This document shows, piece by piece, positions 7,228-64,000 of a stretch of 64,000 nucleotides of DNA. Source of the stretch: Bacteroidota bacterium. Lineage in GTDB: Bacteria; Bacteroidota; Bacteroidia; Flavobacteriales_D; Crocinitomicaceae. Location of the stretch: positions 496,001 to 560,000 of the forward strand of contig JACPUU010000012.1 in the NCBI GenBank assembly GCA_016192075.1. The letters are read 5' to 3'. The notes under the pieces were generated by a model, which saw only the letters and a program-made list of their open reading frames with translations, searched no databases and was not told the origin of the DNA. The number at the start of each line of letters is the position of its first letter. The first letter of the stretch is position 1. The translations under genes were made by a program, and so were the position numbers.

Positions 7228-8382
7228 ATGATAAAATTTTACACTTCTGCTTTCTCAATCCTTTTACTAAGTAGTGTACAAGCACAATACTGCACGGCGG
7301 TTGGCCCTTCCACCACGGCAGATTCTAATTTACAGTCGTTTAACTTATCAGGTGAATCAGCTACAGCCATTACGTTTACCGGGTGTCCGGGTGTTGCCGG
7401 ACTCGATGATCAGACATTTGCAGAATCAGTTGTGCTGAATGCAGGTACATCTTACACCGCCTATGCACAATTTGGTACCTGTGGCGGCAATTACTACGGT
7501 GTTGGACAAGCCTGGATAGATTACAACCAAAACCAGGTTTTTGAATCATCCGAATCTATTGGTACCTGGTCTGGTACTCCCCCAACAGCGTTATCAACCT
7601 GGGGATTCAATGTACCCGCCGGTGCCATTTCAGGAACCACCCGTTTGCGTGTTGTTCAGTTTGAAGGCGGCGCTTTGCCTATTGACCCTTGTGCCGTTTT
7701 TACCTGGGGTTCTACAACTGATTTTACGGTTCAGATCGGGGGCGGTATGGATTGCTCCGGTTATTTAGGTCAAAGTACGGCCAGCCCACGCCCGGTGTCA
7801 GCTCTTCCCTATTCTGAAAACTACAACAATTCCGTTTGTTACTACAACGTAATGCCCGTTTACGGTTCACCGGATGTTTTTTACCGCATTCTGCCGGTGC
7901 AGCTGGGCGCTCAGTATATTACCATATCGCTTTGCGGATCAGCCATTGACACTTACCTTTCTGTATTGGACGCTGATGGCAACGTGCTTTATTACAACGA
8001 TGACAATGCGGCCTGCGGCACTTCGTCCAAAATTCACTTCAATGCAGGCACACATGATACGCTTTATGCCGTTGTACAAGGCTGGGGATATGCAGTTGGC
8101 GCTTACTCCATTTTAGTTGAGGAAGAACTGGCAGGAATTTCTGAAAACAGCAATTCAGCCAATTTTGAGCTTTACCCCAATCCGGCAAACGACCGTGTAA
8201 AAATCTCAGTGAATGAGGTGAATGCATTGGTTCAAATTCATGATCTGAGCGGCAAACTGGTGTATACAACAACGATTCAGAATCAGCAGGAAATTGATCT
8301 TGCAGAACTGGGCAACGGAACCTACCTGGTGACTGTACTTACTGAAAAAGGAACATTTACTCAAAAGCTGGTGCTGCAATGA
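7228..8382 (+). CDS. Secreted GEVED-domain protein with T9SS sorting domain
   Basis: 384 residues. A signal peptide (FSILLLSSVQAQ) is followed by YCTAVGPSTTADSNLQSF...TFTGCPG, the hallmark opening of the GEVED domain, with the conserved GVGQAWIDYNQNQVFE core. A second beta domain (residues ~175-305; DVFYRILPVQLGAQ...TYLSVLD) resembles pre-peptidase C-terminal (PPC) domains. The end, FELYPNPANDRV to KLVLQ, is a T9SS type A sorting domain. It overlaps the next gene by 4 bp (ATGA) and heads the run of Kelch genes, so it is presumably exported to the cell surface together with them. No catalytic domain is visible. Confidence 0.9.
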   Translation: MIKFYTSAFSILLLSSVQAQYCTAVGPSTTADSNLQSFNLSGESATAITFTGCPGVAGLDDQTFAESVVLNAGTSYTAYAQFGTCGGNYYGVGQAWIDYNQNQVFESSESIGTWSGTPPTALSTWGFNVPAGAISGTTRLRVVQFEGGALPIDPCAVFTWGSTTDFTVQIGGGMDCSGYLGQSTASPRPVSALPYSENYNNSVCYYNVMPVYGSPDVFYRILPVQLGAQYITISLCGSAIDTYLSVLDADGNVLYYNDDNAACGTSSKIHFNAGTHDTLYAVVQGWGYAVGAYSILVEEELAGISENSNSANFELYPNPANDRVKISVNEVNALVQIHDLSGKLVYTTTIQNQQEIDLAELGNGTYLVTVLTEKGTFTQKLVLQ

Positions 8383-9587
8383 AATGGATAACCGGTATAG
8401 GCCTTTTACTCTGCCTGTCTGCCTCAACAGACACGTTTTGCTACGAGGTATGGAATCAAAAAGCCAATTTTGGCGGTTCAGCCCGCCACCGGTGTACGGC
8501 CTTTTCTATTGGTAACAAAGGCTATATTGGATTGGGACACATTAATGCTGTCACCAATTTTTCATACGAAGATTTCTGGGAGTATGACCCTGCCACCAAT
8601 TCGTGGACACAAAAAGCCAATTTTGGCGGCGGTTTGCGCTATCACAGCATTGGTTTTTCAATCGGCTCAAAAGGCTATGTTGGTATGGGGCGTGAACAAA
8701 GCGGCAATTATGAAAACGACCTTTGGGAGTTTGATCCGCTTGCCAATACCTGGCTGCAAAAATCAAATTCCCCGGGGGGTAACCGCAGAGGTGCCGTGGC
8801 TTTTGTAATCAACAACATTGCCTATGTAGGATCTGGTGAAGTTCAGGGAGGCGCTGTTTCAAACGAATTTTACGCGTATGATGCCGCTGTTGATTTTTGG
8901 TATCCCGTAGCTACTTTTCCGGGCACAGCGCGTACATCTGCTGTTGCATTCAGCATTGGTGACAAAGGGTATTTTGGTACCGGTGGTATGGCCTTTGGTT
9001 CGACTGATTTCTGGGAATACAATCCTGCAACGGATCAATGGACACAACTGTCAGACGTGGGCCCTACAGCGCGCATGGAAGCCTGCGGTTTTTCTGTAAA
9101 CGGAAAAGGCTACATTGGAACCGGTGACGATTTTTCAAGCGGTAATAATTACAGTGATTTCTGGGAATACACCCCGGCAACAGATACCTGGGTTCAAATC
9201 AACGATTTCCCGGGTATTGCACGGCGCTATATGGTGGCGTTCACCATTGGCACTAAAGCCTATGCCGGTGTTGGAACCAATGGTACCAATTTCAGGGATT
9301 TTTGGGAATTTGATAAAACCCTGGGCGAATCAGCCTATAGCCAACCGGTTTCATTCACGCTGTTTCCAAACCCGGTTACGGATTATTTTACCATCACCTG
9401 TAACGAACCTGAATACCTGAACAGTACTTTCTACCTGCTGAATACCGCCGGCGAAATGGTAATGACAACCAAACTTACCGATTCACAAACCATTTTATCA
9501 CGCAATAACCTGGCTGCCTCTACTTATTACTACGTTGTACAGTCCGGTACCCATATTCTTCAAACCGGTCCCCTAATTTTGAAATAA
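8379..9587 (+). CDS. Secreted Kelch-repeat beta-propeller protein with T9SS domain (Kelch 1)
   Basis: 402 residues: signal peptide, then about six ~50-residue Kelch repeats of the form AFSIGNKGYIGLG...DFWEYDPATNSWTQ, enough for a complete six-bladed propeller, then a C-terminal sorting domain (FTLFPNPVTDYF to LILK). Kelch propellers bind partners or glycans and can carry catalysis, but no galactose-oxidase Cys-Tyr copper site is recognised here. First of four tandem paralogs; it is translationally coupled to the GEVED gene by an ATGA overlap. Confidence 0.9.
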   Translation: MKWITGIGLLLCLSASTDTFCYEVWNQKANFGGSARHRCTAFSIGNKGYIGLGHINAVTNFSYEDFWEYDPATNSWTQKANFGGGLRYHSIGFSIGSKGYVGMGREQSGNYENDLWEFDPLANTWLQKSNSPGGNRRGAVAFVINNIAYVGSGEVQGGAVSNEFYAYDAAVDFWYPVATFPGTARTSAVAFSIGDKGYFGTGGMAFGSTDFWEYNPATDQWTQLSDVGPTARMEACGFSVNGKGYIGTGDDFSSGNNYSDFWEYTPATDTWVQINDFPGIARRYMVAFTIGTKAYAGVGTNGTNFRDFWEFDKTLGESAYSQPVSFTLFPNPVTDYFTITCNEPEYLNSTFYLLNTAGEMVMTTKLTDSQTILSRNNLAASTYYYVVQSGTHILQTGPLILK

Positions 9588-9589
9588 CT

Positions 9590-10720
9590 ATGACTCTAAA
9601 ATCAAAAATGCTGCTGCTGTTGATTGGCTTTTCTGCAACAGGATTGAGCTCTGAAGCCTGGAATACAAAATCGAATTTTGGCGGTGTAGCACGACACCGC
9701 GGCACCGGTATCTCAGTTGGAAACCGCGGGTATATGGGACTTGGCCACTACAACGGCTCAGGCACCAATATTTTATTTAATGACTGGTGGGAATTTGATC
9801 CCGGCACCAACACCTGGAGTCAGAAAGCAAATTACCCTTTTCCTACCTATGCGGCATCCAGTTTTAAAATTGGCATGAAATGTTATGTTGGCACCGGTGT
9901 AAGTGCAGGCAACCTTTTCTATGCCTATGATCCCATTGCAAATACCTGGACAGCCATTGAACCGGTACCTATGGGGGCAACCGATCAGGTTGGTTTTAGT
10001 GTAAACAACAAAGGGTATTACCTTTATTCAAACCAACTGTATGAATATGATGCAACGCTGGATCAGTGGACATTGAAAAATACAGTACCGTTTTTCCCTT
10101 CAAGCTGGTGTTCAACATTTACCATTGGTGAAAAAGCCTATGTAAAAAGCGGAACGCAGCTTTATGAATACAAACCTGCAACAGATGAGTGGGCTGCCAG
10201 GGCCAATTTTCCGGGACTTGCCTCTGGCGGATCAGCCGCATTTGCTGTGAAGGGCAAAGGATACATTGTTTGTGGTTATATCGGCTGGTTATCTGAATTA
10301 TCAGATGAAGTGTGGGAATTTGATCCGGCTCTCAACGTGTGGACACAACTGGATGATTTTCCAGGATCAGCACGCCGTTTCTCTTCGGGTTTTGCCATTG
10401 GCAACAAAGGTTATATTGGCATTGGAACCACCGGCACCAACATGCGCGATTTCTGGGAGTTTGATGAATTACTGGGGGCTGCTGAAACTTCACTGCCGGA
10501 AGTCAGTTTATATCCCAACCCAACAACCGGTTATATCACCGTTTCAGGCATTACCGATGCAACCGTAAATCTCTATGATTTAACCGGAAAACTCGTTTAT
10601 TCTGCTTTACTGACCGGGTCAGACATGCTTGATCTGCGTGAACTGGAATCAGGAAACTACATGGTTGAAATTCTGACAGCAAATTCACGATCCACCCAAA
10701 AAATAATCGTTCAAAACTAG
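9590..10720 (+). CDS. Secreted Kelch-repeat protein with T9SS domain (Kelch 2)
   Basis: 376 residues. Signal peptide (KMLLLLIGFSATGLSSEA), then Kelch repeats such as GISVGNRGYMGLG, DWWEFDPGTNTWSQ and VWEFDPALNVWTQLDDFPG, then a sorting domain (VSLYPNPTTGYI to KIIVQN). The middle blades are more diverged and shorter than in Kelch 1. It starts 2 bp after Kelch 1, so the two are certainly in one transcript. Close similarity to Kelch 1 (WNxKxNFGGxARHRxT at the N-terminus) indicates a recent tandem duplication. Confidence 0.9.
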   Translation: MTLKSKMLLLLIGFSATGLSSEAWNTKSNFGGVARHRGTGISVGNRGYMGLGHYNGSGTNILFNDWWEFDPGTNTWSQKANYPFPTYAASSFKIGMKCYVGTGVSAGNLFYAYDPIANTWTAIEPVPMGATDQVGFSVNNKGYYLYSNQLYEYDATLDQWTLKNTVPFFPSSWCSTFTIGEKAYVKSGTQLYEYKPATDEWAARANFPGLASGGSAAFAVKGKGYIVCGYIGWLSELSDEVWEFDPALNVWTQLDDFPGSARRFSSGFAIGNKGYIGIGTTGTNMRDFWEFDELLGAAETSLPEVSLYPNPTTGYITVSGITDATVNLYDLTGKLVYSALLTGSDMLDLRELESGNYMVEILTANSRSTQKIIVQN

Positions 10721-10745
10721 TTTACTCCCCTCAAGAAATTACCTT

Positions 10746-11972
10746 ATGCGATTAACGAATACCTTCTTTTTACTGTTACTTTCTGCCAGTGTTATCAGTT
10801 TTGGCCAGGGGCAAAATTCCTGGACCAAAAAAGCAGCCTTTGGTGGATTAAAACGGGAGCGCGCTGTGAGTTTTTCGGTTGGAGGCTATGGTTATGTAGC
10901 TACCGGAGAAGACACCGTTAATATCACCCACAATGACCTCTGGCAATATGACCCTACCCTTGACAGTTGGACTCAAAAAGCTGATTTACCCGGCTCACCG
11001 CGCAGAAATGCAGTTGGTTTTGCATTGGATGACAAAGGCTATGTAGGCACCGGTATTGATAGTTCAGAATCGTCAATGGGAGTTGAGTTAAATGATTTCT
11101 GGGAATATGACCCTGCAACCAATACCTGGCTTCAAAAAGCAGATTACCCGGGTGCTGGCGGCTTTGGGGTGTATTATGCCGGTTCGTTTACTGCTGATAA
11201 CAAAGGGTATGTAACCTGCGGAAAATATGGGCCAAGTGCTTATGCGTTTGATTTGTGGGAATATAAACCCAGTACCGACAGCTGGTCACAACGGGCCAAT
11301 TTTCCAGGTGGTGTAAGGTATGCCGTCACCGCACTCGCTATTGACAACAAGGGCTATGTGGGTATGGGAATTGACCAGGATTTATACCGTAAAGACTGGT
11401 GGCAATATGACCCCGCAACCAATATTTGGGAACAGCGCTCTAACCTGCCCGGTACTGAACGCGGTGCCGCAAGTACATTTACGCTTGGCAGCAAAGGCTT
11501 TGTGGTATTTGGTGCTGATGGCGGATACAAGGATGAGTTATGGGAATATAATCCCTACACCGATTCGTGGAACATCAAAGCCAATTTTCCGGGTGGTGAA
11601 CGCCGCAATGCCATTGCTTTTTCAATAGGTTCCAAAGGATATGCCGGCATTGGAAAAGGACCAAGCGGCATTCGCCAGAATTTTTACGAGTACACTCCTG
11701 CACTGCCGCTGGCGGTTGACGATTATGAATTACTTAAAATTCAGGTTTATCCAAACCCGGCAACAGAATTGGTAAATGTATTTCTGCAACAGCATTCAGA
11801 TGCCCGTTTGATGGTGCTCACCGACAATACCGGAAACCTGGTAGAAACGCAGGCTGTAACCAGCCAGACCATTCAGATTATGCGTGATACCAAAGCAAAC
11901 GGAATTTACTACCTGACCATTTTGAATGATCAAAACAGACCTATTGCTCAAACCACCCTTATTTTCAATTAA
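10746..11972 (+). CDS. Secreted Kelch-repeat protein with T9SS domain (Kelch 3)
   Basis: 408 residues. Signal peptide (LLLLSASVISFGQG), then Kelch blades with DLWQYDPTLDSWTQKADLPG, DFWEYDPATNTWLQKADYPG and similar, then a sorting domain (IQVYPNPATELV to TTLIFN). The blades are regular, each ending in NFPGG or LPG followed by RR/ER. 25 bp separate it from Kelch 2. The stop codon lies 1 bp before the next ATG. Confidence 0.9.
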   Translation: MRLTNTFFLLLLSASVISFGQGQNSWTKKAAFGGLKRERAVSFSVGGYGYVATGEDTVNITHNDLWQYDPTLDSWTQKADLPGSPRRNAVGFALDDKGYVGTGIDSSESSMGVELNDFWEYDPATNTWLQKADYPGAGGFGVYYAGSFTADNKGYVTCGKYGPSAYAFDLWEYKPSTDSWSQRANFPGGVRYAVTALAIDNKGYVGMGIDQDLYRKDWWQYDPATNIWEQRSNLPGTERGAASTFTLGSKGFVVFGADGGYKDELWEYNPYTDSWNIKANFPGGERRNAIAFSIGSKGYAGIGKGPSGIRQNFYEYTPALPLAVDDYELLKIQVYPNPATELVNVFLQQHSDARLMVLTDNTGNLVETQAVTSQTIQIMRDTKANGIYYLTILNDQNRPIAQTTLIFN

Positions 11973-11973
11973 G

Positions 11974-13182
11974 ATGAATTACAGACTTTTTACAGCTCTG
12001 ATTTTTGGCTTTTCAGGATTTGCCCAGGCGCAGGATACCTGGATTCAGCGTGACTCTGTCAACGGATCCGGAAAATCATCCGGTGCTGTATTTGCCCTGA
12101 ATGACGATGCTTACTTTTTGACCGGCCTTGATCAGTTTGGATTCAAACGCAGCATGGTTTCATACGACATTAGCCAGAATGACTGGGACGACGAAATAAG
12201 CCTGGGGGGTGAAACCGGTGACGGACTCAACCGCGGTTCTGCCATTGCATTTTCTGCCGGCGGGTTTGGCTTTTGCGGACTTGGGACCGGAAGTGTTGAT
12301 TACTTTAAAGACTTGTGGAAGTTTGATCCGGTAACCAATGTGTGGACTCAGATGGCTGATTTTGAAGGAACAGGAAGGCGCGAAGCCGTTTCATTTACGG
12401 TGGGTGAAAATGCCTACGTAGGCACCGGGCAGGATGAGTTTGGTTTAACCAATGATTTCTGGAAATACGATTACCTGACCAATGACTGGATTCAGATTGC
12501 AGATTTTCCGGGTACACCGCGCCGTGATGCCGTAGCCATAAGCATGGGCGGACAAGGTTACGTGGGCACTGGTATTGATGCATCAACTTACCTGGTTGAC
12601 TTTTGGGCCTATTATCCGCTTACAGATACCTGGCTGCAAAGAGCTGATTTTCCAGGTACTCCACGGCATGGTTCGGTAGGGTTCGGACTTTTTCCAACCG
12701 CATTTATTGCAACTGGTGAAGACAATACATTCACCTATAAAAAAGACACCTGGGAATACAATTACTTTTCCAATACCTGGACCCAGCGTTCTAACTTTCC
12801 AGGTCCCGGCCGGGCGCAAGCCATAGCCATTGTTGTAAAAGGCAGGGCCTTCGTTGGAACCGGGTATAACGGAACCCTCTTTGATGATTTTTACGAGTAC
12901 ACCCCCATGCTAAGCGTTGATGAAGAGCTCAATCTGATTTCAAACCTGTACCCCAACCCTGCTTCAACCGTTTTCTACCTGAACCTGGCAAATGCGCAAA
13001 ACCAGCCACAGGTACAGCTTTTCAATGAAACCGGGCAGGACATAACCAGCCAATTTGAAATTTCACAACCTTCACCTACACAGCTGGAAATCCGTTTCAA
13101 CAATATTGCACGCGGCCTGTACTATGTTTCTGTGAAAAATGATGCGGGTTATTTGTCTACCAAATCAATTCTGATTCAATGA
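11974..13182 (+). CDS. Secreted Kelch-repeat protein with T9SS domain (Kelch 4)
   Basis: The track start (11926) lies inside Kelch 3. The ATG at 11974 directly after the Kelch 3 stop gives a proper signal peptide (MNYRLFTALIFGFSGFAQAQ), so I use it; 402 residues. Kelch blades include DLWKFDPVTNVWTQMADF, DFWKYDYLTNDWIQIADFPG and DTWEYNYFSNTWTQRSNFPG. The sorting domain runs from SNLYPNPASTVF to SILIQ. It overlaps the following DUF4907 lipoprotein by 4 bp. Confidence 0.9.
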   Translation: MNYRLFTALIFGFSGFAQAQDTWIQRDSVNGSGKSSGAVFALNDDAYFLTGLDQFGFKRSMVSYDISQNDWDDEISLGGETGDGLNRGSAIAFSAGGFGFCGLGTGSVDYFKDLWKFDPVTNVWTQMADFEGTGRREAVSFTVGENAYVGTGQDEFGLTNDFWKYDYLTNDWIQIADFPGTPRRDAVAISMGGQGYVGTGIDASTYLVDFWAYYPLTDTWLQRADFPGTPRHGSVGFGLFPTAFIATGEDNTFTYKKDTWEYNYFSNTWTQRSNFPGPGRAQAIAIVVKGRAFVGTGYNGTLFDDFYEYTPMLSVDEELNLISNLYPNPASTVFYLNLANAQNQPQVQLFNETGQDITSQFEISQPSPTQLEIRFNNIARGLYYVSVKNDAGYLSTKSILIQ

Positions 13183-51868: not shown

Positions 51869-52618
51869 TTAATCCAGCAATTCGTCATTATCTTTTAACC
51901 CGTAGCGCCGTTTGAGTATACCAACAAAAAAATAGAAAAACGGCGTATCACTCAACGCAAAAATGACCTTAAATAAAAAACTGCTGCCAAACAGCATCCA
52001 GAAAGCCTCCCATTTGATGGTTCCAAAACTGCAGAGCAGCATCAGTACAACAGTGGTGTCAAAAAGCTGCGAAACGATGGTTGAAAAATTATTTCGAATC
52101 CAGAGGTGTTTGCCTTTTGTAACTCGTTTCCAGAAATGAAATATGCGGATATCAATAAACTGCGCAATGAGGTATGCCACCATAGATGCACAAACCGCGG
52201 GTAATGTAAGCCCAAAGACTTTGGAGAATATGTGATCATTGACCGGTGAAAAATCAGTAGCCGGGGCTGCTTGTGCAATCATAACAATACCCATTACAAT
52301 AAAAGCGGCTATAAGTCCGGCCTTAACCACATTATTGGCTTTACGCTCACCGTAAATTTCAGAAATGATATCGGTTACCAGAAATGTAAGCGGATACGGC
52401 AATAAACCGGCTGAAAATTTAAATTCATACCAGCCAAAGGGATTCCAGGTAATAAATTTTTGAAAGATCAGGTTGCAGCTTACAAGCAGCGCAATGAATG
52501 TTCCTCCGAGTATGAGGTAGACATACTCAGACTCTTGTTTTCTTTTTAAATCCACATGTTGAGTTTCGGTTTTCAAATTTAAGGTTAATTCCGGTATCTG
52601 ATTCTGCTGAAAAACCAT
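51869..52618 (-). CDS. Queuosine precursor transporter (VUT/YhhQ family)
   Basis: 249 residues from the ATG at 52618 (MVFQQNQIPEL), which I prefer over the track start. Six membrane helices. The family signature appears as LVSCNLIFQKFI, LLPYPLTFLVTDIISEIYG (helix 2-3) and AYLIAQFIDIRIFHFWKRVT, followed by RNNFSTIVSQLFDTTVVL. It imports preQ0/preQ1 or queuine for tRNA modification. The divergent neighbour starts 52 bp away. No other queuosine genes in the window. Confidence 0.92.
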   Translation of the reverse strand: MVFQQNQIPELTLNLKTETQHVDLKRKQESEYVYLILGGTFIALLVSCNLIFQKFITWNPFGWYEFKFSAGLLPYPLTFLVTDIISEIYGERKANNVVKAGLIAAFIVMGIVMIAQAAPATDFSPVNDHIFSKVFGLTLPAVCASMVAYLIAQFIDIRIFHFWKRVTKGKHLWIRNNFSTIVSQLFDTTVVLMLLCSFGTIKWEAFWMLFGSSFLFKVIFALSDTPFFYFFVGILKRRYGLKDNDELLD

Positions 52619-52669
52619 GACAAAGTATTGTTCAAACTCACTATATTTGCACAACCAAAATAGAATCAA

Positions 52670-53515
52670 ATGAGACTGGGGCAGCTTTCACGTAAACTGG
52701 ATTTAAAACCAACCGAAATCAGGGAATTAATCCGCAACGAATTTAATGTGGAAATTGACCTGGACCTGAACACACGCATTGAAGACAGCTATGCAGCCGC
52801 TTTAAGCGCCAGGTACCAGCCCGCAGCGGTTGAAAAACAAGAACAGGCTGTACCAGTTATAGCGGAAAAAGCAGAACAGGCTGATACAAAAACTGCGGAT
52901 ATTGAAGAAAACGGGAATGAAGAAGAAGCACCCGTTCACGCACCCATTGAGGTACCTCATTACCACGCCTCAACAAACGGTACTGATACAACTGAAAACA
53001 AAGATCCCTTTATTCCACTGCCGGTTGATCCGGATGCGGAGCTGATCAAAGCACCAAAAATCAAACTGGAGGGATTGAAAGTGATTGGAAAAATTGACCT
53101 GCCGCAGCCAAAAGAAACCGCCCCGGCGCAGGAGGATGAGGCAGCTGCTTCAGAAAATGGAAACCACAGCACACCTAAATCATTCAAAGAACGGAGATTG
53201 AAAAATGCGCCGGTTTTGGAAAGTGACGACGAAGAATATTCGATTTACAAAGACAAAAAAGGGATTTATCACTTTAGTCAGACACAGCGCGAAAATCGTA
53301 AAAACAGCCTGGAGCGGATCAAACGCGAAAAGGCAGAAGAAGCCCGCAAGCAAAAAAAGATCAAACACTATCAGCAAATTCTGGAGGTTGAAAAAAAGAC
53401 AGAATCACCCGCTAAAAAGGTTAAAAAACAAACCCAAAAAGAATCTGGCAGACAGGTTGAAAAACCACAGCGCAAAGGTATTTGGGGAAAGTTTCTGAAC
53501 TGGCTTAACGGTTAA
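52670..53515 (+). CDS. IF2N-like N-terminal domain protein with long charged region
   Basis: 281 residues. Residues ~1-52 (MRLGQLSRKLDLKPTEIREL, EFNVEIDLDLNTRIED) look like the IF2 N-terminal / winged three-helix domain. There is then a long Glu/Lys/Pro-rich disordered stretch. SIYKDKKGIYHFSQTQRENR precedes a coiled coil of K/E (~210-260). It ends in GIWGKFLNWLNG, a conserved-looking hydrophobic tail. I know of similar hypothetical proteins in Bacteroidota but no function. A TATATTTG box (52642-52649) is 21 bp upstream of the ATG. The stop overlaps that of the convergent OmpA-like gene by two bases. Confidence 0.75.
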   Translation: MRLGQLSRKLDLKPTEIRELIRNEFNVEIDLDLNTRIEDSYAAALSARYQPAAVEKQEQAVPVIAEKAEQADTKTADIEENGNEEEAPVHAPIEVPHYHASTNGTDTTENKDPFIPLPVDPDAELIKAPKIKLEGLKVIGKIDLPQPKETAPAQEDEAAASENGNHSTPKSFKERRLKNAPVLESDDEEYSIYKDKKGIYHFSQTQRENRKNSLERIKREKAEEARKQKKIKHYQQILEVEKKTESPAKKVKKQTQKESGRQVEKPQRKGIWGKFLNWLNG

Positions 53516-54261
53516 TCAGCACTCATTAAAGTCTTGATTTTGTCACGCTGCTCAGCCGCATACATTTCATGGGCAGGAGCCACATCTGCCGCATACGAAT
53601 AAAATTCCAGCGCTTTTCGATAATCACCTTCAAGCAAAGCACGATCGGCAATTACTATAAGATCTTCATAATAGGCTGAGTTGCGCACCTTGCTCCAATC
53701 AACCTGCCGGACTGAGGCTGCATTGTTTTTATAAAAATCCCTGCCGATAAAACCAATGATACGGATATCAATTCGCCGGTTAACCTGGTGAAGCACCTCA
53801 CAGGTATATTTGTCATGCAGGTAACGGTTGATGATTTCATCCGGTACAATGGGTTGTGTTTCTCCTTTTCCAACAGGCAGCAAACGTTCCGTAAAAATAA
53901 ATTCATCACCATACTGCGTTATCAGCTGTGACACCACTGCTTTGGCCCGGTATAGTGACAGTCGCAGATTTGCATCAGCCTGCCCGCGCGTATCAGAGTG
54001 TACCTGAATTTCAGTAAGTATAAAGGGATTTCTGCGGTAAAATTCAGCCAGCTTTTTGAATGAACTGTCAGATTCCGGCATAAAGCCGTGTCCGCTTAGT
54101 TCAAACCAGATTTCGGGTGCACGCAATACATCTCCTACTTCAAAAACAGAATCTGAAAGTGTTTTGGTATAGTAGGCTGCATAGACCGAATCAACATTAA
54201 TTGCTGCCCCGGCAATCAGGTTCCAGCCAAAAATCAACCCGGTAAAAAGCCTGTTTATCAT
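53512..54261 (-). CDS. OmpA-like peptidoglycan-binding domain protein
   Basis: 249 residues. Signal peptide (LFTGLIFGWNLIAGA), then a ~60-residue region, then an OmpA-C-like domain: ILTEIQVHSDTRGQADANLRLSLYRAKAVVSQL resembles the usual VxGHTDxxG...NxxLSxxRAxxVxxYL, with LLPVGKGETQPI and NRRIDIRI. The normal GHTD Thr/Asp pair is HSDT here, and the final ~50 residues (ALLEGDYRKALEFYSYAAD) form a TPR-like helix pair. Likely periplasmic or outer-membrane anchoring to peptidoglycan. Its ATG overlaps the stop of the caspase-Tudor gene (ATGA), so they form an operon. Confidence 0.82.
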   Translation of the reverse strand: MINRLFTGLIFGWNLIAGAAINVDSVYAAYYTKTLSDSVFEVGDVLRAPEIWFELSGHGFMPESDSSFKKLAEFYRRNPFILTEIQVHSDTRGQADANLRLSLYRAKAVVSQLITQYGDEFIFTERLLPVGKGETQPIVPDEIINRYLHDKYTCEVLHQVNRRIDIRIIGFIGRDFYKNNAASVRQVDWSKVRNSAYYEDLIVIADRALLEGDYRKALEFYSYAADVAPAHEMYAAEQRDKIKTLMSAD

Positions 54262-55520
54262 TTCACACGTTCAGGTGAAACCCACTCATCCCAGGTATGG
54301 GCATAGCCTTCGTACGTAACAAAAAGGGCTGTGTCCGTTTTTTCCAGGATATAGCCCGGATACCAGGCTCCCTCCCATTTGATGGATTTGTAAATTTCTT
54401 TTCCGGTACGTATGCGGTCATACATCACCCATTCGTCATACGAATTATCATAGCCGGTGTAATGAATGTACATAAAAGCATCGTTCACTGCCGTTATTTC
54501 AGCCGGATAGTATTTTCCCTCCCAAAGCACTTCAATTTTCTGTCCCTCTTTGTAAACCGGAAAATAAATGGGACGAATGCCATACGGTTCTTCTTCCAGA
54601 TCAAGTTTCACGGAATAATTATAAAACTGGCAGGTATGTGTACCGTTTACTGATTTAAGAACACGTGCCGTGCGCCAGTTATTGTTTTCATCAAGCGCAT
54701 AAACATAGGTTCCGCGCCGGTGAACAGCACCCGTTGAAACCGGTTTGCGCACTGCGGGCGGACATTTGCCAACAATGGTTTTTTCAGGGTCTACGTTGTA
54801 AACAGCATACCCGCTCAACTGATATTCACGGTACTTCATAGCCTGTTTAATTTCATCTGCGGTTTCTGTCAGGGTGACGCTGTTATCACCATTCTGATCT
54901 GCCAGCAAATCACCGCGCAAATTATCCAGCAGGGTTTGGGTAAATGTCCAGTTGCCGGTAGAGATGTTGGAAGAGGTAGCCGAGGTAAGTACAATTACCT
55001 CTTTGCCCAAATCAGCAATTTTTTTACCTACTGCCAGAAGTGAACCGGAATAACAGCAATCAGCCATAAGTACAATTCGTTTACCCTTAAAATTAGCTGC
55101 CGCCAGATCATACAACGTGCTTACATCAAACATGGATGCCGGTTGTTTACCCATGTCGTAATTGCAGAAATAATAATCAGTTCCAAGTTTGCTGCCGTGA
55201 CCGGCGTAATAAAATACAAACGTAGATTCTGAATTACAGGCGCGCATTTGTTTTTTAATGGCGCGGTTCATTTTATCCAATGTTCCGTCACTATCAAGCA
55301 GCAGCGTATTTGCACTGTCTGCAATACCCATCATGGCCAGTAAATCATGTAACTCCTGGTCTTTCCGGTTTTCATCACTGAAAGAATTTACAGCAGGGTC
55401 CTGCCATTTCAATACACCTGTCAAAACCACATGGGTATTGGCCGGATCACAAATCATCTGCGCATGCGCAACGACTAAAAAACTGCTAAAAAGAACGGCA
55501 GAAAAAATCTTACGAAGCAT
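54258..55520 (-). CDS. Exported caspase-like protease (orthocaspase) with Tudor-like C-terminal repeats
   Basis: 420 residues. Signal peptide (AVLFSSFLVVAHAQM). Residues ~25-255 are a caspase/metacaspase (peptidase C14) fold: catalytic His in FYYAGHGSKLG (~107) and catalytic Cys in VLMADCCYSGSL (~153). An acidic DQNGDNSVTLTE loop (~213) could bind calcium, as in metacaspases. The C-terminus holds three repeats of ~45 residues with the Tudor/Agenet-type pattern (KIEVLWEGKYYPAEITAV, IHYTGYDNSYDEWV, VTYEGYAHTWDEWV). Expected specificity is for Arg/Lys, but the substrate is unknown. The operon continues into the OmpA-like gene (4-bp overlap); a T9SS protein lies 6 bp upstream. Confidence 0.88.
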   Translation of the reverse strand: MLRKIFSAVLFSSFLVVAHAQMICDPANTHVVLTGVLKWQDPAVNSFSDENRKDQELHDLLAMMGIADSANTLLLDSDGTLDKMNRAIKKQMRACNSESTFVFYYAGHGSKLGTDYYFCNYDMGKQPASMFDVSTLYDLAAANFKGKRIVLMADCCYSGSLLAVGKKIADLGKEVIVLTSATSSNISTGNWTFTQTLLDNLRGDLLADQNGDNSVTLTETADEIKQAMKYREYQLSGYAVYNVDPEKTIVGKCPPAVRKPVSTGAVHRRGTYVYALDENNNWRTARVLKSVNGTHTCQFYNYSVKLDLEEEPYGIRPIYFPVYKEGQKIEVLWEGKYYPAEITAVNDAFMYIHYTGYDNSYDEWVMYDRIRTGKEIYKSIKWEGAWYPGYILEKTDTALFVTYEGYAHTWDEWVSPERVK

Positions 55521-55526
55521 GCAGTA

Positions 55527-56687
55527 TTATTGTTTTACCAGTTTTTCGACACTGAAACCAGCCTCTGTTTTAACCATCACAAAATAAATACCGCCCGCCA
55601 GTGCAGATACATCAACCTGCCCGTTCTGACCCAGGTGTACTTTTTGTTCGGCCCCCTGGTTGTCAAAAATACGCACCGACTGAATTTTCTGATCAGCATT
55701 CAGCGTTATCAAATCACCTGCCGGGTTTGGATAAATAAGAAAGGTTGATTCAGTCAATTCAGTTAAACCAACCTGCCAGTTGAAAACGGTAATGTCTACC
55801 TGGGTGGTGTTATTTGACCAGTGATATGCATCTCTGACACGTACATCATAACTGTCATTCCCTGAAAAGCCGGCGTTGGGGGTATATGTGAGTGAAGCCA
55901 GTTCATTGCTGTATACGGTATCTCCGGCGGCAAGCGGCGTACCGCTTAATTCAAGCGTACCATTTGGCGGCAGGGTTTCAATACGCACCATGCCAATGGT
56001 GTCTGTATCATAATCAGACATGGCGGCATCAAAATCAGCTTTTTGAAATGAAAGTACATTGTCTTTGAATACTGAAAGTGCCATGTTATTCAATGTGGGT
56101 TTATGGTTTACCCAAAGGTTTAAAACCAGATGTGCAGAGGCAAAACCTATAGCACTGTATTCGGTTGGTTCAGGAATTCCACAACCTGCAGCAGCAATGT
56201 AAGATGGGCTGGATTCAACGTATGGGTTGGACCCGGGAAAGAAAATAATGGCTCCGTTTAATGGCGCAAACACTTCGGTAACCAAGGTATCACCCGGCAG
56301 TGTATACCCATCTTTCATTGGTATGTTCATTTTGTAAATGGTTGAATCAGGATATACGGCTGCCGTATCTGCCGCAATCAGGTTCATGTTTGCAAACACC
56401 AGGCTTCCGTCCAGTTTATGAACTCTGCCAATAAGGTCGTACGCGCCGCCACTGGTTGATTCTACACCCAATTGAATGTAGACAAAAAAGGCGGTATCCT
56501 GAATGTTAAAATCATCGGTATCAAAAACCCGGATAAAGCTGTTGTTGTGTATAGTACCAGGACCGCTGGTTGTGCAGGCAGCAGAATTTGAGCTCCAGAC
56601 ATTCTGGTTAGAACTATGCGTTAGCATAGTTTGAGATGTTGCTGCAAGCGAAACAAAAAAGGAAAGCGAGAGTAGTTGTTTTTTCAT
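55527..56687 (-). CDS. Secreted cadherin-like-repeat protein with T9SS domain (paralog 1)
   Basis: 386 residues from the ATG at 56687 (MKKQLLSLSFFVSLAATSQ), preferred over the track start for its signal peptide. Mature part: an N-terminal beta domain (AFFVYIQLGVESTSGGAYDL, LPGDTLVTEVFAPLNG). One cadherin-like/Ig repeat then follows (LPPNGTLELSGTPLAAGDTV to YDVRVRDAYHWS), then the sorting domain (FLIYPNPAGDLI to KLVKQ). Close paralog of the upstream gene at 56817. It ends 6 bp before the caspase-Tudor gene starts, so these are likely cotranscribed. Function unknown; surface or released protein. Confidence 0.88.
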   Translation of the reverse strand: MKKQLLSLSFFVSLAATSQTMLTHSSNQNVWSSNSAACTTSGPGTIHNNSFIRVFDTDDFNIQDTAFFVYIQLGVESTSGGAYDLIGRVHKLDGSLVFANMNLIAADTAAVYPDSTIYKMNIPMKDGYTLPGDTLVTEVFAPLNGAIIFFPGSNPYVESSPSYIAAAGCGIPEPTEYSAIGFASAHLVLNLWVNHKPTLNNMALSVFKDNVLSFQKADFDAAMSDYDTDTIGMVRIETLPPNGTLELSGTPLAAGDTVYSNELASLTYTPNAGFSGNDSYDVRVRDAYHWSNNTTQVDITVFNWQVGLTELTESTFLIYPNPAGDLITLNADQKIQSVRIFDNQGAEQKVHLGQNGQVDVSALAGGIYFVMVKTEAGFSVEKLVKQ

Positions 56688-56759
56688 ACAAAGAATAGAA
56701 TAAGAAGTAATAGCTAATGTACTACTTTTTATGAAGTAGATCAAGCGCCGGAAAAGGGT

Positions 56760-56789
56760 AAAAAAAAGCCCACCCGAATAGGTGAGCTT
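56760..56789 (-). terminator. Rho-independent terminator for the 56817 gene (minus strand)
   Basis: On the minus strand AGCTCACCT + ATTC + GGGTGGGCT (9 bp with two G-U pairs), followed by a run of eight T. It separates paralog 2 from the operon that begins with paralog 1. Confidence 0.75.
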
Positions 56790-56816
56790 CTTGTAACGAT
56801 CGTTCTTTTCAGGTGC

Positions 56817-57980
56817 TTAATCCTTGATAAAACGGCTGGTAAAAAGGCCGCTGGCGGTTTTAACCTCCAGAATATAAACCCCGTTTTCCAATTTGGAAAT
56901 ATCTACCAGCGTTTCGTCTGAAACACGGGTCATCAGTAACTTTCCTTCAACTGTAAAAATGCGGATTTGCTGTATGGTTTCTGTAACCTGAACGGTGATT
57001 TGCTTTGATGCCGGATTAGGATAAAGACTTACACTGCCTGTTTGATTTTCAACCAAACCAGCCTGGTAATCAGTAACAGTTATGTCAACAACCGCAGGGG
57101 TATTTGACCAATGAGTTGTGTCACGGGCAATGAGTGAAAAATTATCAGAACCAACGTAACCGCTGTTTGGTGTATAGGTTACTGTGCTCAGTTCTGTATC
57201 AAGAATGGTATCTCCTACAGCCAGTGCTGTTCCACCTAAATCCAACACCCCGTTTGCAGGCACCGTAACAACTTTCATCATGGTTAAGCCATCACTGTCA
57301 CCATCCGCAAACTGGGATGTAAAATCTGTTGCAAGAAAATTCAATTGTGCATTATTTAAAACATTTGTAGCAAACCCGGCCAAGGTTGGTTTTTGATTCA
57401 CATAAATATTCATGATCAGATGCATATCCGGAAAACCTACCGCAGACATTGTTGTCAGGTCCATAATACCGCATCCGTCAGCAACAATATAGGTAGGGTT
57501 GCTTTCGGGAGAGGCGTTGGATCCCGGAAAAAAAGAGGCAGTACCGCTAATTGGCAAATTAAACTCACCTGCAAGGGAATCACCCGGAAGTGCATAACCA
57601 CCGGTGAACGGTATTTCAGTCAGGTACATGGTTGCATCGGGCGTGGCGGCAACAGTATCTGAAATAATCAATGTGAGGTTGGCCAGGTTTGCAGTACCAA
57701 CAGCGCTGTGCATTTTGGCTACAATATCGTAGGCCCCGCCGGCAGTAGATTCACAGGCCACCTGCATGCGGATAAAAAAAGCAGTATCCGAAATGTTTAC
57801 ATAATCGGCCAGATCAAAATATTGGAAAAAATGATTCTCAACCGAATTAACACCGCTGTTACAGGTTACTGAATTACCGGTAGTAATTGTCAAATCAGGG
57901 TTATTGGTAAGTTTTGTTTGAGCAAAAGAAGATGCAGTGAGCACAAAAAGCGCCACACCAGAGAGTAGTGTTTTTTTCAT
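56817..57980 (-). CDS. Secreted cadherin-like-repeat protein with T9SS domain (paralog 2)
   Basis: 387 residues. Signal peptide (LLSGVALFVLTASSFAQ). Shares its whole layout with paralog 1: AFFIRMQVACESTAGGAYDI, LPGDSLAGEFNLPISGTASF, a cadherin-like repeat (VPANGVLDLGGTALAVGDTI to FSLIARDTTHWS), and a C-terminal sorting domain (VSLYPNPASKQI to SRFIKD). A tandem duplication is the simplest explanation. A terminator follows it, so it is probably transcribed on its own, or with the WD40-caspase 56 bp upstream on the same strand. Confidence 0.88.
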   Translation of the reverse strand: MKKTLLSGVALFVLTASSFAQTKLTNNPDLTITTGNSVTCNSGVNSVENHFFQYFDLADYVNISDTAFFIRMQVACESTAGGAYDIVAKMHSAVGTANLANLTLIISDTVAATPDATMYLTEIPFTGGYALPGDSLAGEFNLPISGTASFFPGSNASPESNPTYIVADGCGIMDLTTMSAVGFPDMHLIMNIYVNQKPTLAGFATNVLNNAQLNFLATDFTSQFADGDSDGLTMMKVVTVPANGVLDLGGTALAVGDTILDTELSTVTYTPNSGYVGSDNFSLIARDTTHWSNTPAVVDITVTDYQAGLVENQTGSVSLYPNPASKQITVQVTETIQQIRIFTVEGKLLMTRVSDETLVDISKLENGVYILEVKTASGLFTSRFIKD

Positions 57981-58036
57981 AAAATAGTTTAAATAATCCG
58001 GCTAATGTACTGAAAAAACAAGCAATACAGGTTAGA

Positions 58037-61000
58037 CTACTTCAGTATAACAATCGGGAAATCCTGCCCAAAGCTATAACTGGTTGGGTATTGCGCTGTG
58101 CCATGATATTGCTCAGACAATTCAGGTACGCGTTCTTCAACATACACTTTTAACTCACTGATGGTGATTTTTTCATCTCCGTTATTGCCGCGCTGCCCAT
58201 TTAATATTTCAAGTAATGCATACGTAAATAAACCATGCTGCAGGTCACCTGCTTCATTGGCATATTGCGCATCCTGCGAGGCGGTGATAAAGAAGGTACC
58301 GGTACTGCGTGCCAGCTGTGCCAGTGTTTTTTCACGGCCATCTCCACGCGATGCAAAGGCGTCCAATGCACCCCCTGAATGGCAGGCATCCAGAATAAAA
58401 AGTTGTTTTTCAGCACTGATGAGTTTTGAAAACTCCATCAGCTCGGTAGCTGAAAGTGCTTTCTGCCGCAGCACTTCCGTTTCACTGTAAAGGTTGGTAA
58501 TATCATGCGTTACAATAAAAAAATCTGAATTTTCTGCCAGTTTTTCAACACTCATTACACCGTGTCCGGCATAATAGAATACAAAAACATCTTCAGGACC
58601 AATTTCTTTCCTGATCTGGCTGACAGCGTCACTAATGTTGGCTTTAATAGCCTGCTCATTAAAAATTTCAAATGTTTTGATGCTGTTAAAAAGTGAATCA
58701 GCCCCGGCTGAAATTGCTTTTACAAATGATTGGGCATCATTCACCGCATAATCCAGGTTATACTGCGGATTTTTATAGGTATTTATGCCTACTGATAAAA
58801 TGAACAAATCGGTCAGGGCAGCTACTCCATCATACAAAACAGTCAGTTCAACCGGGCTTGATTCTGTGCGGTCAGAATTGATGACAACAGCGGAGAGCTC
58901 ATTTTCACCATCGGTCAGCGGAATTTCAAAATGCCTGACATCTTTGGTCTCACCCCTAAAAACGAGGTCAGTTTGCATAGATTCCTGAACAACCAGTTTT
59001 CCATTGTTGTACACACGAATTTCATCAATGGTTTGTCCCTGGCTGTTAATTCTGATGCCTAACGGTAAAACTGCTTGTTTCCAGGAGATAACAGAATCAG
59101 GATCCAATACCGAACGGGAACCTGTTTCAGCTAATTCAAATGCAATTTGCGGTGATGTTTTAAGAATATTGTGCAAATTCTCTCCCGTAGTGGTTGATCT
59201 TTCACCCTTCATAATTTTTTCAATCAGCCCGGGTGTGTAATACTTATCAAAAAGAGAACCTACCGGTAAAACTTCCATTCCGGACACATAATTCACCAGT
59301 TCCAGTGATTTGGATGATCCGTCAAAAGCCCCGTCAGTACTGGTTGCCAGCCATTCGTTGCGGCTTATTTGAATACGTGAGTATAGCGCCTTGCGGTTTT
59401 CAATGTCCCACACTTTTACCATGCCCTCTGCATCACATGAAATCAGCCGTGTACCATCAGCGTTGAAGGTAATGGAAGTAACCGGGCTGGTATGCCCTTT
59501 CAGGTAGTAGAACGTATTCAATTCCGTGATCCATAAAATAATATCATTGTCAGCGCTGCCTGATGCAATAAAACGTGCTTTTGGATCATAACAAACGCTG
59601 TAAACGGGTCCATCGTGTTCGGTCATTTTTGCAATAAGCATACCTGTTAAAATATCCCACACTTTTACTTTGCCGTCCCAACTGGAGGTTACAATTTGTT
59701 TTCCATCCGGGCTAAAATCAAATGCAGAAATAACGCCGGTATGACCAACCAGGGTTCTGAATGAACTGCCTGCATCCATTTCCCAAAAATCAACGTTACG
59801 GTCTAAATCACCGGTAACAGCATACAAGCCGTTATTGGTAAACCCAACTGCATACGGTGAAACATTGCCTAAATCCATGCGGTAATATTCACCCAGGTCA
59901 TTCATATCCCAGATTCGCATGGTACCATCCCAACTGCCGCTTGACAGTTTGCTGCCATCTGCATTAAACGCCAGGTCAAAAATCAATTCGCCGTGCCCGG
60001 TCAGTTTTTTAATCAATTCGCCGGTTTGGGTATTCCAGAGACAAATGGTTCGGTCTCCGCCTGCTGTTGCCAGCATTTTACCATCAGGGCTATAATCAAG
60101 CGCAAATACAACTTTGGTGTGCCCGCTGAGCAGGTGAACTATTTTACCCGTTTCAAGACTTAAAACAAGCGCGGTTGAATCCACGTTTCCAATGGCAATG
60201 TGTTTGTTGTCGGGACTCAGGGCCACATTCCGCTTCAGTGAAATGAATTTTAGAATACGCTCATCCGTCCAATACGAATCATTAAAACGTAAACCATCGT
60301 CCCGCTTTTTATTCAAAAAACCCTGCAATGATTTCTTTTTACGGCCTGTTTCAACGTCATAGATCATGGCTTCATTGTTGCTGCCGGGCACGAGAATCAT
60401 TTTACTGTCAGCTGAAAAATTAAAATCAAAATAATCGATGTTATCTGCCGTAAGGTGAATTTTTTCTTTGCCGGTTTTCAGTTCGTAAACAAATACGTCC
60501 TGATCAAATGAAAGCAAGATGTGCGAGTCGTCCGGACTGAATTTAAGGCCGTAGGGCCGCTCCCGGAATGATGAAAATGACCGGATTTTTGTACCGGTGG
60601 CCAGGTCCCAGGCAATAGCATCTACCTTACTTGACATGGTAACCAGGTATTTGCCGGAATTTGAAAAAACATGTTTGGTATTGCACCCATCACACTCTTC
60701 TTCCCCATCTCTGAGATCATACAATTCTTTACCCGTGGCGGCATCAAAAACTTTGGTAAACAGTTTGGTTGAACTTGCTGCAATATACTTTTCATCAGGG
60801 CTGAAAGACATCAGGAATGGCTTGTCAAATTCAATATCACTTAATGTATCGCCACTGACCAGATCACACACGTAGAATTTTTCATAATTGTACGCCGTAA
60901 TAATTTTGGTGTTGGCTTTATTGATAATACCGTTATAATTCATCAAACCATAACTGCGGCTGAGTGTTTGAATTTTTTTGCCGGTTGTTGCATCATAAAC

Positions 61001-61432
61001 ATGCATGCCATCACGGCTATCGAAGAGTACAACATGCGTCCCTGCCGGGCTGTAAAAAGCCTGCTCCAGTTCATCATCGGCCAGTTTGATGGTAATTAGC
61101 AGCCGGCCTGTGCTTATTTCAAATACTTTAGCCGAATTATCTGCCGATGCGGTGAGTATGTGCGTTCCGTCAGGACTGAAAAAAACAGACAAAACAGGTT
61201 CACTGTGCCGGTTAAAAACCCTTATCTGGCGGCCATTTTCAATATTCCATAAAATCACAGAATTATCTGAACTTCCGGTTACAACATAACGCGAGTCGGG
61301 ACTAAACGCATAACAGGTTATTTTTTTAGCGTGCCCTTTTTGCAGCACTGCTTCCAGCGTATTTGATTCTTGCCCATAGACCAGGGGCACCAGCAAAAAC
61401 TGTAGCACAGCCACAAAACGCATTAACTTCAT
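58037..61432 (-). CDS. Exported WD40-repeat caspase-like protease (WD40-orthocaspase)
   Basis: 1131 residues from the ATG at 61432, which begins the signal peptide (LMRFVAVLQFLLVPLVYGQ); the track start adds 14 residues. Residues ~20-705 carry many WD40 repeats (VTGSSDNSVILWNIENG, SGHTKVVFALDYSPDGKMLA, LVGHTGVISAFDFSPDGKQI), enough for two seven-bladed propellers. After an Ig-like linker (residues ~800-870) lies a caspase domain (~875-1131): His in FVFYYAGHGVMS and Cys in LFILDACHSGGALD. NACHT or other NTPase domains are absent. WD40-caspase proteins are known from bacteria such as filamentous cyanobacteria and Bacteroidota; their triggers are unknown. Presumably periplasmic or surface-exposed. 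Confidence 0.92.
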   Translation of the reverse strand: MKLMRFVAVLQFLLVPLVYGQESNTLEAVLQKGHAKKITCYAFSPDSRYVVTGSSDNSVILWNIENGRQIRVFNRHSEPVLSVFFSPDGTHILTASADNSAKVFEISTGRLLITIKLADDELEQAFYSPAGTHVVLFDSRDGMHVYDATTGKKIQTLSRSYGLMNYNGIINKANTKIITAYNYEKFYVCDLVSGDTLSDIEFDKPFLMSFSPDEKYIAASSTKLFTKVFDAATGKELYDLRDGEEECDGCNTKHVFSNSGKYLVTMSSKVDAIAWDLATGTKIRSFSSFRERPYGLKFSPDDSHILLSFDQDVFVYELKTGKEKIHLTADNIDYFDFNFSADSKMILVPGSNNEAMIYDVETGRKKKSLQGFLNKKRDDGLRFNDSYWTDERILKFISLKRNVALSPDNKHIAIGNVDSTALVLSLETGKIVHLLSGHTKVVFALDYSPDGKMLATAGGDRTICLWNTQTGELIKKLTGHGELIFDLAFNADGSKLSSGSWDGTMRIWDMNDLGEYYRMDLGNVSPYAVGFTNNGLYAVTGDLDRNVDFWEMDAGSSFRTLVGHTGVISAFDFSPDGKQIVTSSWDGKVKVWDILTGMLIAKMTEHDGPVYSVCYDPKARFIASGSADNDIILWITELNTFYYLKGHTSPVTSITFNADGTRLISCDAEGMVKVWDIENRKALYSRIQISRNEWLATSTDGAFDGSSKSLELVNYVSGMEVLPVGSLFDKYYTPGLIEKIMKGERSTTTGENLHNILKTSPQIAFELAETGSRSVLDPDSVISWKQAVLPLGIRINSQGQTIDEIRVYNNGKLVVQESMQTDLVFRGETKDVRHFEIPLTDGENELSAVVINSDRTESSPVELTVLYDGVAALTDLFILSVGINTYKNPQYNLDYAVNDAQSFVKAISAGADSLFNSIKTFEIFNEQAIKANISDAVSQIRKEIGPEDVFVFYYAGHGVMSVEKLAENSDFFIVTHDITNLYSETEVLRQKALSATELMEFSKLISAEKQLFILDACHSGGALDAFASRGDGREKTLAQLARSTGTFFITASQDAQYANEAGDLQHGLFTYALLEILNGQRGNNGDEKITISELKVYVEERVPELSEQYHGTAQYPTSYSFGQDFPIVILK

Positions 61433-61675
61433 AACAGATTGGTTTAGTTGCATTAACAGAAATAGTTGAATCAAAAGTAATCACTTCCTTCTGTTTCGCA
61501 TCACCCTGCATCTGCGTATTGTGCAGAATTAACCAAATCTCTTCTAAACATACCAGAAACAGGCCCTTTTGTTTAATGGCTGATCAGATACGGCTTATTC
61601 TTCGCTATACCTGGAAAGACAAGGACCCCGGATCTAAGTCCAGGGCTTAGGTATGATCCCCTTATCAGAGCAGAA

Positions 61676-62674: not shown

Positions 62675-64000
62675 ATGACAAACTCTAAGTTATTGACCCG
62701 GTTTACGTTAGCGTTTTCACTTGCTTTACCGGGAGGGTCTCTGTTTGCCCAATTAACCGGCACCGGAGCCTATTTTATGGGAAACGTGGCTGAAATTGCC
62801 ATTCACAACAATGGTCATGAGGGTACCGCAGACATTGCCGGCTCACATTCACGCTCAGATCAGTGGGATGCTTCCGTTTACTTTGGGTTTGTTGCCAATC
62901 CGCAAAACGATGGCTGGGGTAATTACGACGGCGATTTTTTTACACCTGGTTCACCTGAAAATGGTTTTGGTATTGAAGTAAACGGAATGAATTATTCCAA
63001 CAACTCATCCTATTACAATGAAATTCCAGGTTCACTGTCAAACTATGTTGTTGACGGAAACTGCCTTTCTGTTGACTGGAATGGAACAGTTGCAGGTGTG
63101 GGTGTAGCCATTACGTATAAATTTATTACTACTGAACTCTACTATACAACCGAGGTAACACTAACCAACAATACCGGTGCTGCTTTGACTGATCTTTATT
63201 TCTACCGCAATTTTGACCCTGACAACAATGTCAGCATCAGCTTTGACTATACCACGCAGAATACCATTGTGGCACAACCTACACCGGCTTGCCCTAAAGC
63301 ACTGGTATCAGCAACCTCCAGCAATCCATGGCTTTCATACGTTGGTATTGCCGCAATTGGTCAGCAATTCCGCGTTGCACACGGCGGTTTTGCCAACCGT
63401 GATGCTTCAGATATCTGGAACGGTGCCTGGCCATTAACCGGTGTATTGGGCGCCAGTGTTTTTATGGATGAGGCCATTGCAATGGCTTATAAAATAACCT
63501 CATTGCCGGCTGGTGCATCTGAAACATTTGAATTTGTAATCGTTCTGGACGACACACAGGTTGATGAAGCATTTGCGCAGCTTTATGAATTTAACTTTAC
63601 GGGTTATACCGGCACAGGCAGCGTTTGCAGCCCGGTGATGGATACGGCTTACCTGCCTTGTCCCGGCGCTTCTATTGTCCTGGATGTTACCGGCCCGGGA
63701 GTTACAGATTATAACTGGGCATGGTCGCCTGGTACAGGTCTGAGCTCAACTACCGGATATTCTGTAACTGCCACACCGGCTACTTCAACGCTTTATACAG
63801 TAACCGGAACACCAATCAACCCTTGTCTGTCAATGACCATTGTCAAAGAAATTTATGTGAATGTAGGTGTTGGACCATTGGTTCAGATTACGCCGCCTGC
63901 ACCTGTTTGCGGACCATTTGACTTAACTACGCTGGTTGTTACAGATGCCAACAACATTCCCGGTACCACTACCACATTTCACTCCGCTATTCCTGCCAAT
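62675..64000 (+). CDS. Large secreted protein with PKD/Ig-like region (3' end outside window)
   Basis: Not listed as a whole in the ORF track because it runs off the window; the frame is open from the ATG at 62675 for 442 codons to the last base. Signal peptide (TLAFSLALPGGSLFAQ), then a ~270-residue beta domain (FMGNVAEIAIHNNGHEGTAD, LTDLYFYRNFDPDNNVSISF). Proline/Thr-rich Ig- or PKD-like segments follow (WAWSPGTGLSSTTGYSVTAT, ATSTLYTVTGTPINPC). Such proteins in this group usually end in a T9SS or SprB-like repeat region, but this cannot be seen here. Confidence 0.85.
   Translation, partial: MTNSKLLTRFTLAFSLALPGGSLFAQLTGTGAYFMGNVAEIAIHNNGHEGTADIAGSHSRSDQWDASVYFGFVANPQNDGWGNYDGDFFTPGSPENGFGIEVNGMNYSNNSSYYNEIPGSLSNYVVDGNCLSVDWNGTVAGVGVAITYKFITTELYYTTEVTLTNNTGAALTDLYFYRNFDPDNNVSISFDYTTQNTIVAQPTPACPKALVSATSSNPWLSYVGIAAIGQQFRVAHGGFANRDASDIWNGAWPLTGVLGASVFMDEAIAMAYKITSLPAGASETFEFVIVLDDTQVDEAFAQLYEFNFTGYTGTGSVCSPVMDTAYLPCPGASIVLDVTGPGVTDYNWAWSPGTGLSSTTGYSVTATPATSTLYTVTGTPINPCLSMTIVKEIYVNVGVGPLVQITPPAPVCGPFDLTTLVVTDANNIPGTTTTFHSAIPAN

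Follow-up and report, generated by a model that had tools for sequence, protein, structure and literature searches.

Five genes lie in a row on the minus strand of the window, by which is meant the whole 64,000-nucleotide stretch of DNA that was analyzed. They are transcribed in the order WDcasp, T9SS cargo A, T9SS cargo B, TudorCasp, and an OmpA-domain gene. WDcasp (58037..61474), recognized from the list of open reading frames (ORFs), the Pfam and NCBIfam matches, and its orthologs, encodes a putative exported WD40-orthocaspase of 1145 amino acids from a TTG start, or 1131 amino acids from the likely ATG at 61432. Cargo A (56817..57980, 387 amino acids) consists of a signal peptide, an N-terminal domain of about 180 residues (here called T9N), a Big_9/cadherin-like domain, and a Por_Secre_tail. 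Its paralog, cargo B (55527..56744), is a 405-amino acid ORF, shortened to 386 amino acids if the likely ATG at 56687 is used. TudorCasp (54258..55520, 420 amino acids) is a second, apparently exported caspase, which has a His108/Cys156 dyad and carries tandem Tudor-knot/chromo-like repeats at its C-terminus. The last gene (53512..54261) encodes a small, probably exported OmpA-domain protein of 249 amino acids with a C-terminal TPR-like tail. Outside the system lies a convergent plus-strand gene (52670..53515), which adjoins a Vut_1 gene (51869-52669).

The spacing from WDcasp to the OmpA gene is 56, 129, 6, and -4 nucleotides (129 when the ATG at 56687 is used for cargo B), and the OmpA gene overlaps the TudorCasp stop by 4 nucleotides. 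These distances are consistent with one tight apparent operon, and the 6-nucleotide gap together with the 4-nucleotide overlap suggests that the genes are co-expressed in this organism, possibly a sign of real cooperation. Promoter-like sites at the locus were about as frequent as in shuffled sequence and terminator-like sites (18 versus 10 expected) fell mostly within genes, so neither helped in defining the transcript. The preliminary description of this DNA had reported both caspases, two paralogous T9SS proteins, and an OmpA protein on the minus strand, and the ORFs, Pfam, and NCBIfam confirm this content. Given the E-values and the conservation, the domain content of the five genes is not a product of chance.

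WDcasp is built from a signal-peptide-like N-terminus, a WD40 propeller region (Pfam match of 1.2e-76), and a C-terminal caspase domain. In a search for the genome's own caspases, this domain matched Peptidase_C14 at 5.8e-18, over the Pfam cut-off; the NCBIfam caspase model gave 3.4e-23, which is under that model's own cut-off. The His/Cys dyad (YYAGHG or FYAGHG, and DAC[HQ]SG) is present in 17/17 aligned WD40-caspase orthologs, the window's own included, with His or Gln as the residue following the catalytic Cys. Nearly all of these orthologs have a hydrophobic N-terminus ending before Q, judged by eye to be a signal peptide. Since no T9SS sorting domain was found in WDcasp by Pfam or NCBIfam, it is most simply taken to be periplasmic. 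The caspase domain alone gave no sequence match in the PDB at 0.01, and in a structure-database search with the full-length protein the matches were swamped by WD40 proteins.

TudorCasp matches Peptidase_C14 at 2.7e-7, above the Pfam cut-off, and Tudor-knot at 1.1e-8. His108 and Cys156 are invariant in all five aligned Tudor caspases, and sequence comparison aligns the DCCYSG of TudorCasp with the DSCHSG of plant metacaspase-4. By their caspase-like domains and dyads, WDcasp and TudorCasp are both predicted to be Peptidase C14 orthocaspases. The dyads and signal peptides claimed earlier for both proteases are thus borne out, the dyads by conservation in aligned homologs and the signal peptides by eye only. 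The structure model of TudorCasp had a mean pLDDT of 80 and a pTM of 0.78. Foldseek matched its protease part to the MALT1 paracaspase and the yeast metacaspase Yca1, and its C-terminal part to Agenet and SETDB1 Tudor structures; sequence comparison also gave the chromo barrel of yeast Eaf3. Six aromatic residues that may contribute to an aromatic cage (W333, Y338, Y354, W364, W386, and W413) are invariant in the alignment of five homologs. A stand-alone exported protein with two Tudor-knot-like repeats and no caspase is encoded at L010 1474-1905.

The two cargo proteins are 43% identical. Both contain the Big_9/cadherin-like domain (Pfam/NCBIfam), match Por_Secre_tail at about 1e-11 (Pfam), and have a type A C-terminal sorting domain, with TIGR04183 matches of 3.6e-12 and 2.2e-12 that are above the cut-off. 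An AlphaFold model of the cargo made from two sequences was poor (pLDDT 44). The OmpA domain of the 249-amino acid protein matches at 7.5e-9 (Pfam). This protein was considered as a conserved partner and rejected, its relatives in the family matching the OmpA domain only.

Both protease architectures have already been described, and neither exported caspases nor caspase-fold proteases acting on secreted proteins are new. According to Kaur et al. (2018, PMC5906684), caspase-like peptidases are common fusion partners of secreted chromo-like domains in several phyla, among them Bacteroidetes; the domains were proposed to bind peptides in peptidoglycan or matrix, and the proteins to act in conflict or in degrading matrix. 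TudorCasp has the makeup of these fusions: a single protein joins a signal peptide (by eye), a caspase domain, and chromo-like/Tudor-knot domains, the last as tandem SH3-fold barrels with conserved aromatics. That work is the best guide to it. It differs from them in being followed by a coupled OmpA-domain gene and in lying downstream of a second caspase. WD40 metacaspases, which combine WD40 repeats with Peptidase_C14, occur in many copies per genome; operons with more than one metacaspase are known in Bacteroidetes, and OmpA was found in 14 metacaspase operons (Asplund-Samuelsson et al. 2012, PMC3501461). WDcasp has the same combination of domains, but with a Sec-export N-terminus and, in three genera, an adjoining T9SS cargo gene.

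Among the families listed, the protease domains of WDcasp and TudorCasp match caspase-type models only. Fragipain, in contrast, belongs to the C11 family of clan CD. This exported cysteine protease of a member of the Bacteroidota, Bacteroides fragilis, matures secreted proteins (PMC8406203); its substrates are known, and it lacks WD40 or chromo-like domains. PorU and the gingipains belong to yet another family, C25, that of the known T9SS sorting-domain peptidase of Porphyromonas gingivalis; they have a caspase-like fold and act on T9SS cargo at the cell surface (PMC4560394). The genome under study has separate Peptidase_C25 genes elsewhere, so WDcasp and TudorCasp are not needed for removing the sorting domain of the cargo.

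Orthologs of WDcasp occur in 18 of 240 family genomes, the window's own included, and in some more of the order, and they are conserved at full length across genera, mostly at 43-57% identity. None of these WD40-caspase orthologs has a Tudor caspase adjoining it. Homologs of the convergent gene are found near WDcasp at five loci (L052, L053, L054, L057, and L066). In three of them, which belong to one genus (L052, L053, and L066), the convergent gene and Vut_1 homologs border the WDcasp locus, WDcasp is one intergenic region or one gene away from the convergent-gene homolog, and nothing like TudorCasp or the OmpA gene lies between. The convergent gene and Vut_1 mark one end of the WDcasp locus, and this boundary is conserved in several genera. 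Only in the window does the TudorCasp-OmpA pair sit between the T9SS cargo and the convergent gene. Because the window has the same border as the three loci, the pair looks inserted, and the comparison suggests a local insertion, a direction of change that we infer. A foreign origin by base composition was unsupported, the GC content being flat across the operon. In the genus g12, WDcasp has a different conserved neighbor, a small gene following it whose product has an N-terminus ending in ELMIPSFANFSGKVHG (L067 6323-6877; also in L059, L068, L070, L073, and L076).

Full-length relatives of TudorCasp were found in six other genomes (L062-L065, L096, and L097). A scan of the genome collection gave four loci, one of which, L062, coincides with the record of G078, the only one of 99 relatives with a full-length homolog (49%). 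In a phylum sample of 346, two more full-length matches appeared (G691 and G726), and the rest matched the caspase part only. WDcasp, the T9N cargo, and the OmpA gene lie beside TudorCasp in 0 of these 6 genomes, the only ones available for the comparison; two of the loci are near a contig end, the upstream flank being missing from L062 and most of the downstream flank from L065. The neighbors are of other kinds. In L062, the gene after TudorCasp resembles an ABC-type permease in sequence; L063 and L064 have one flanking block in common, with neighbors that are 50-89% identical, and L096 and L097 have another. The most distant homolog is that of L065, a Phragmitibacter MAG. The homologs at L096 8383-9708 and L097 8030-9346 have a lipobox-like N-terminus and are possibly lipoproteins.

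Seven Peptidase_C14 loci are found in the genome that holds the window. Besides WDcasp and TudorCasp, they encode four large proteins of the WD40 type that resemble WDcasp and one 514-amino acid protein, all elsewhere. This last protein (L041 9506-11050) is exported and caspase-like; it carries a DCCNS motif and has a linker rich in Thr and Asn. Genes with a T9SS C-terminal sorting domain number at least 150, which by simple arithmetic on an estimated 4,100 or so genes gives a chance of about 14% that at least one of four neighbors is a T9SS cargo. A caspase or a T9SS cargo in a given stretch is thus not rare here, and caspase-cargo adjacency in one genome is weak evidence alone.

In this cluster, two ordinary exported orthocaspases with separate inheritance have probably come together in one operon. 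It looks like a chance gene neighborhood rather than a new surface-protein maturation system, and the five-gene set itself points to no new system. WDcasp, one of five large WD40-type caspases in the genome, would be Sec-exported and most likely periplasmic. Its propellers would recruit substrates and its caspase domain would cleave after Arg or Lys, as orthocaspases are described as cleaving after these positively charged residues (PMC6426788). Its likely targets are envelope proteins that are in transit or awaiting turnover, perhaps among them the downstream T9SS cargo, which has to cross that compartment too. Through its chromo-like barrels, TudorCasp may attach to peptides of the envelope or the peptidoglycan, which would keep the protease in place. 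The OmpA protein, whose gene is translationally coupled, is a probable peptidoglycan binder.

The preliminary description had instead raised the possibility of one surface-protein maturation or contact-triggered system, made up of all five genes, in which both proteases act on their T9SS partners. Operon-like spacing and the exported look of all five products agree with it, but the Peptidase_C25 genes elsewhere do not, and the five-gene set is found in no relative, WDcasp persisting without TudorCasp. The two caspases are unlinked in every relative's neighborhood that was read, an outcome set beforehand as refuting the idea of a two-caspase system, and such a system now seems very improbable. 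The unrelated neighbors of TudorCasp in six other genomes and the lack of a T9N cargo next to most WDcasp orthologs favor the reading as two independently inherited caspases. The narrower proposal that the caspases process the adjacent T9SS products loses its link between the two caspases and keeps the one between WDcasp and its cargo. In three genera, the gene immediately after WDcasp, on its strand, encodes a T9N-type cargo, with gaps of 56 nucleotides in the window, 139 nucleotides in G008 (L054), where the cargo is 40% identical to cargo B, and 94 nucleotides in G022 (L057). Within the family, T9N is known from just one further genome (G100), in an 826-amino acid protein; the 18 kb read around its gene contain no WDcasp relative. 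An order sample gave no further genome with T9N. The three loci with cargo do not form one group in the WDcasp tree, where the relevant forks are weak or open and G022 branches outside the rest (fork support 81/66); the pairing may therefore be of long standing. It thus appears real, and one ancient adjacency, preserved in three lineages but lost from the others, may account for it.

One could read WDcasp from this as a dedicated, fragipain-like processor of the neighboring cargo that acts in the periplasm, ahead of type IX export or in its course, within a conserved two-gene module to which TudorCasp and the OmpA gene are local additions. That is unlikely, since T9N cargo adjoins none of the other 14 full-length orthologs checked, and most orthologs have an intact dyad in a genome without T9N cargo. 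Flanking genes are also common to the three loci, so one ancestral adjacency explains the linkage, and T9N, which occurs in six other genomes of a phylum sample, mostly in long proteins, has no WDcasp or TudorCasp match nearby in 7/7 loci checked in one other family. The G022 cargo gene (L057 12221-13385) reads in three frames, and its two apparent frameshifts, which could be decay or sequencing error, count against a dedicated processor as well. Adjacency in three genera fits a protease-cargo relationship, to which it lends modest support, and proves nothing. It is also improbable that the two genes are an old protease/surface-protein pair and that the caspase processes the cargo while this travels to the surface. 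If true, this would to our knowledge be the first link between a C14 caspase and type IX secretion. The general idea behind the proposed maturation of surface proteins is not new, as fragipain and the fusions of Kaur et al. (2018) show. No reported substrates for exported bacterial WD40-orthocaspases were found in the literature searched, and the pair offers one concrete, testable guess. It is also doubtful that the proteases work without a dedicated partner, breaking down foreign or matrix proteins as scavengers in the envelope or outside the cell, or as conflict enzymes. The seven caspase loci, the many WD40-caspase paralogs in relatives, and the roles proposed by Kaur et al. (PMC5906684) favor this, but the full-length conservation of WDcasp across genera is more than would be expected of a free scavenger.

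Two further features of the window were noted. Five consecutive plus-strand ORFs of 376-418 amino acids with Por_Secre_tail matches form a tandem run of T9SS cargo (7228-13182). Upstream of WDcasp, a large exported protein (62675-64000) has a 59% relative at L040 1-2883, about 6.5 kb from another WD40-caspase of the same genome.
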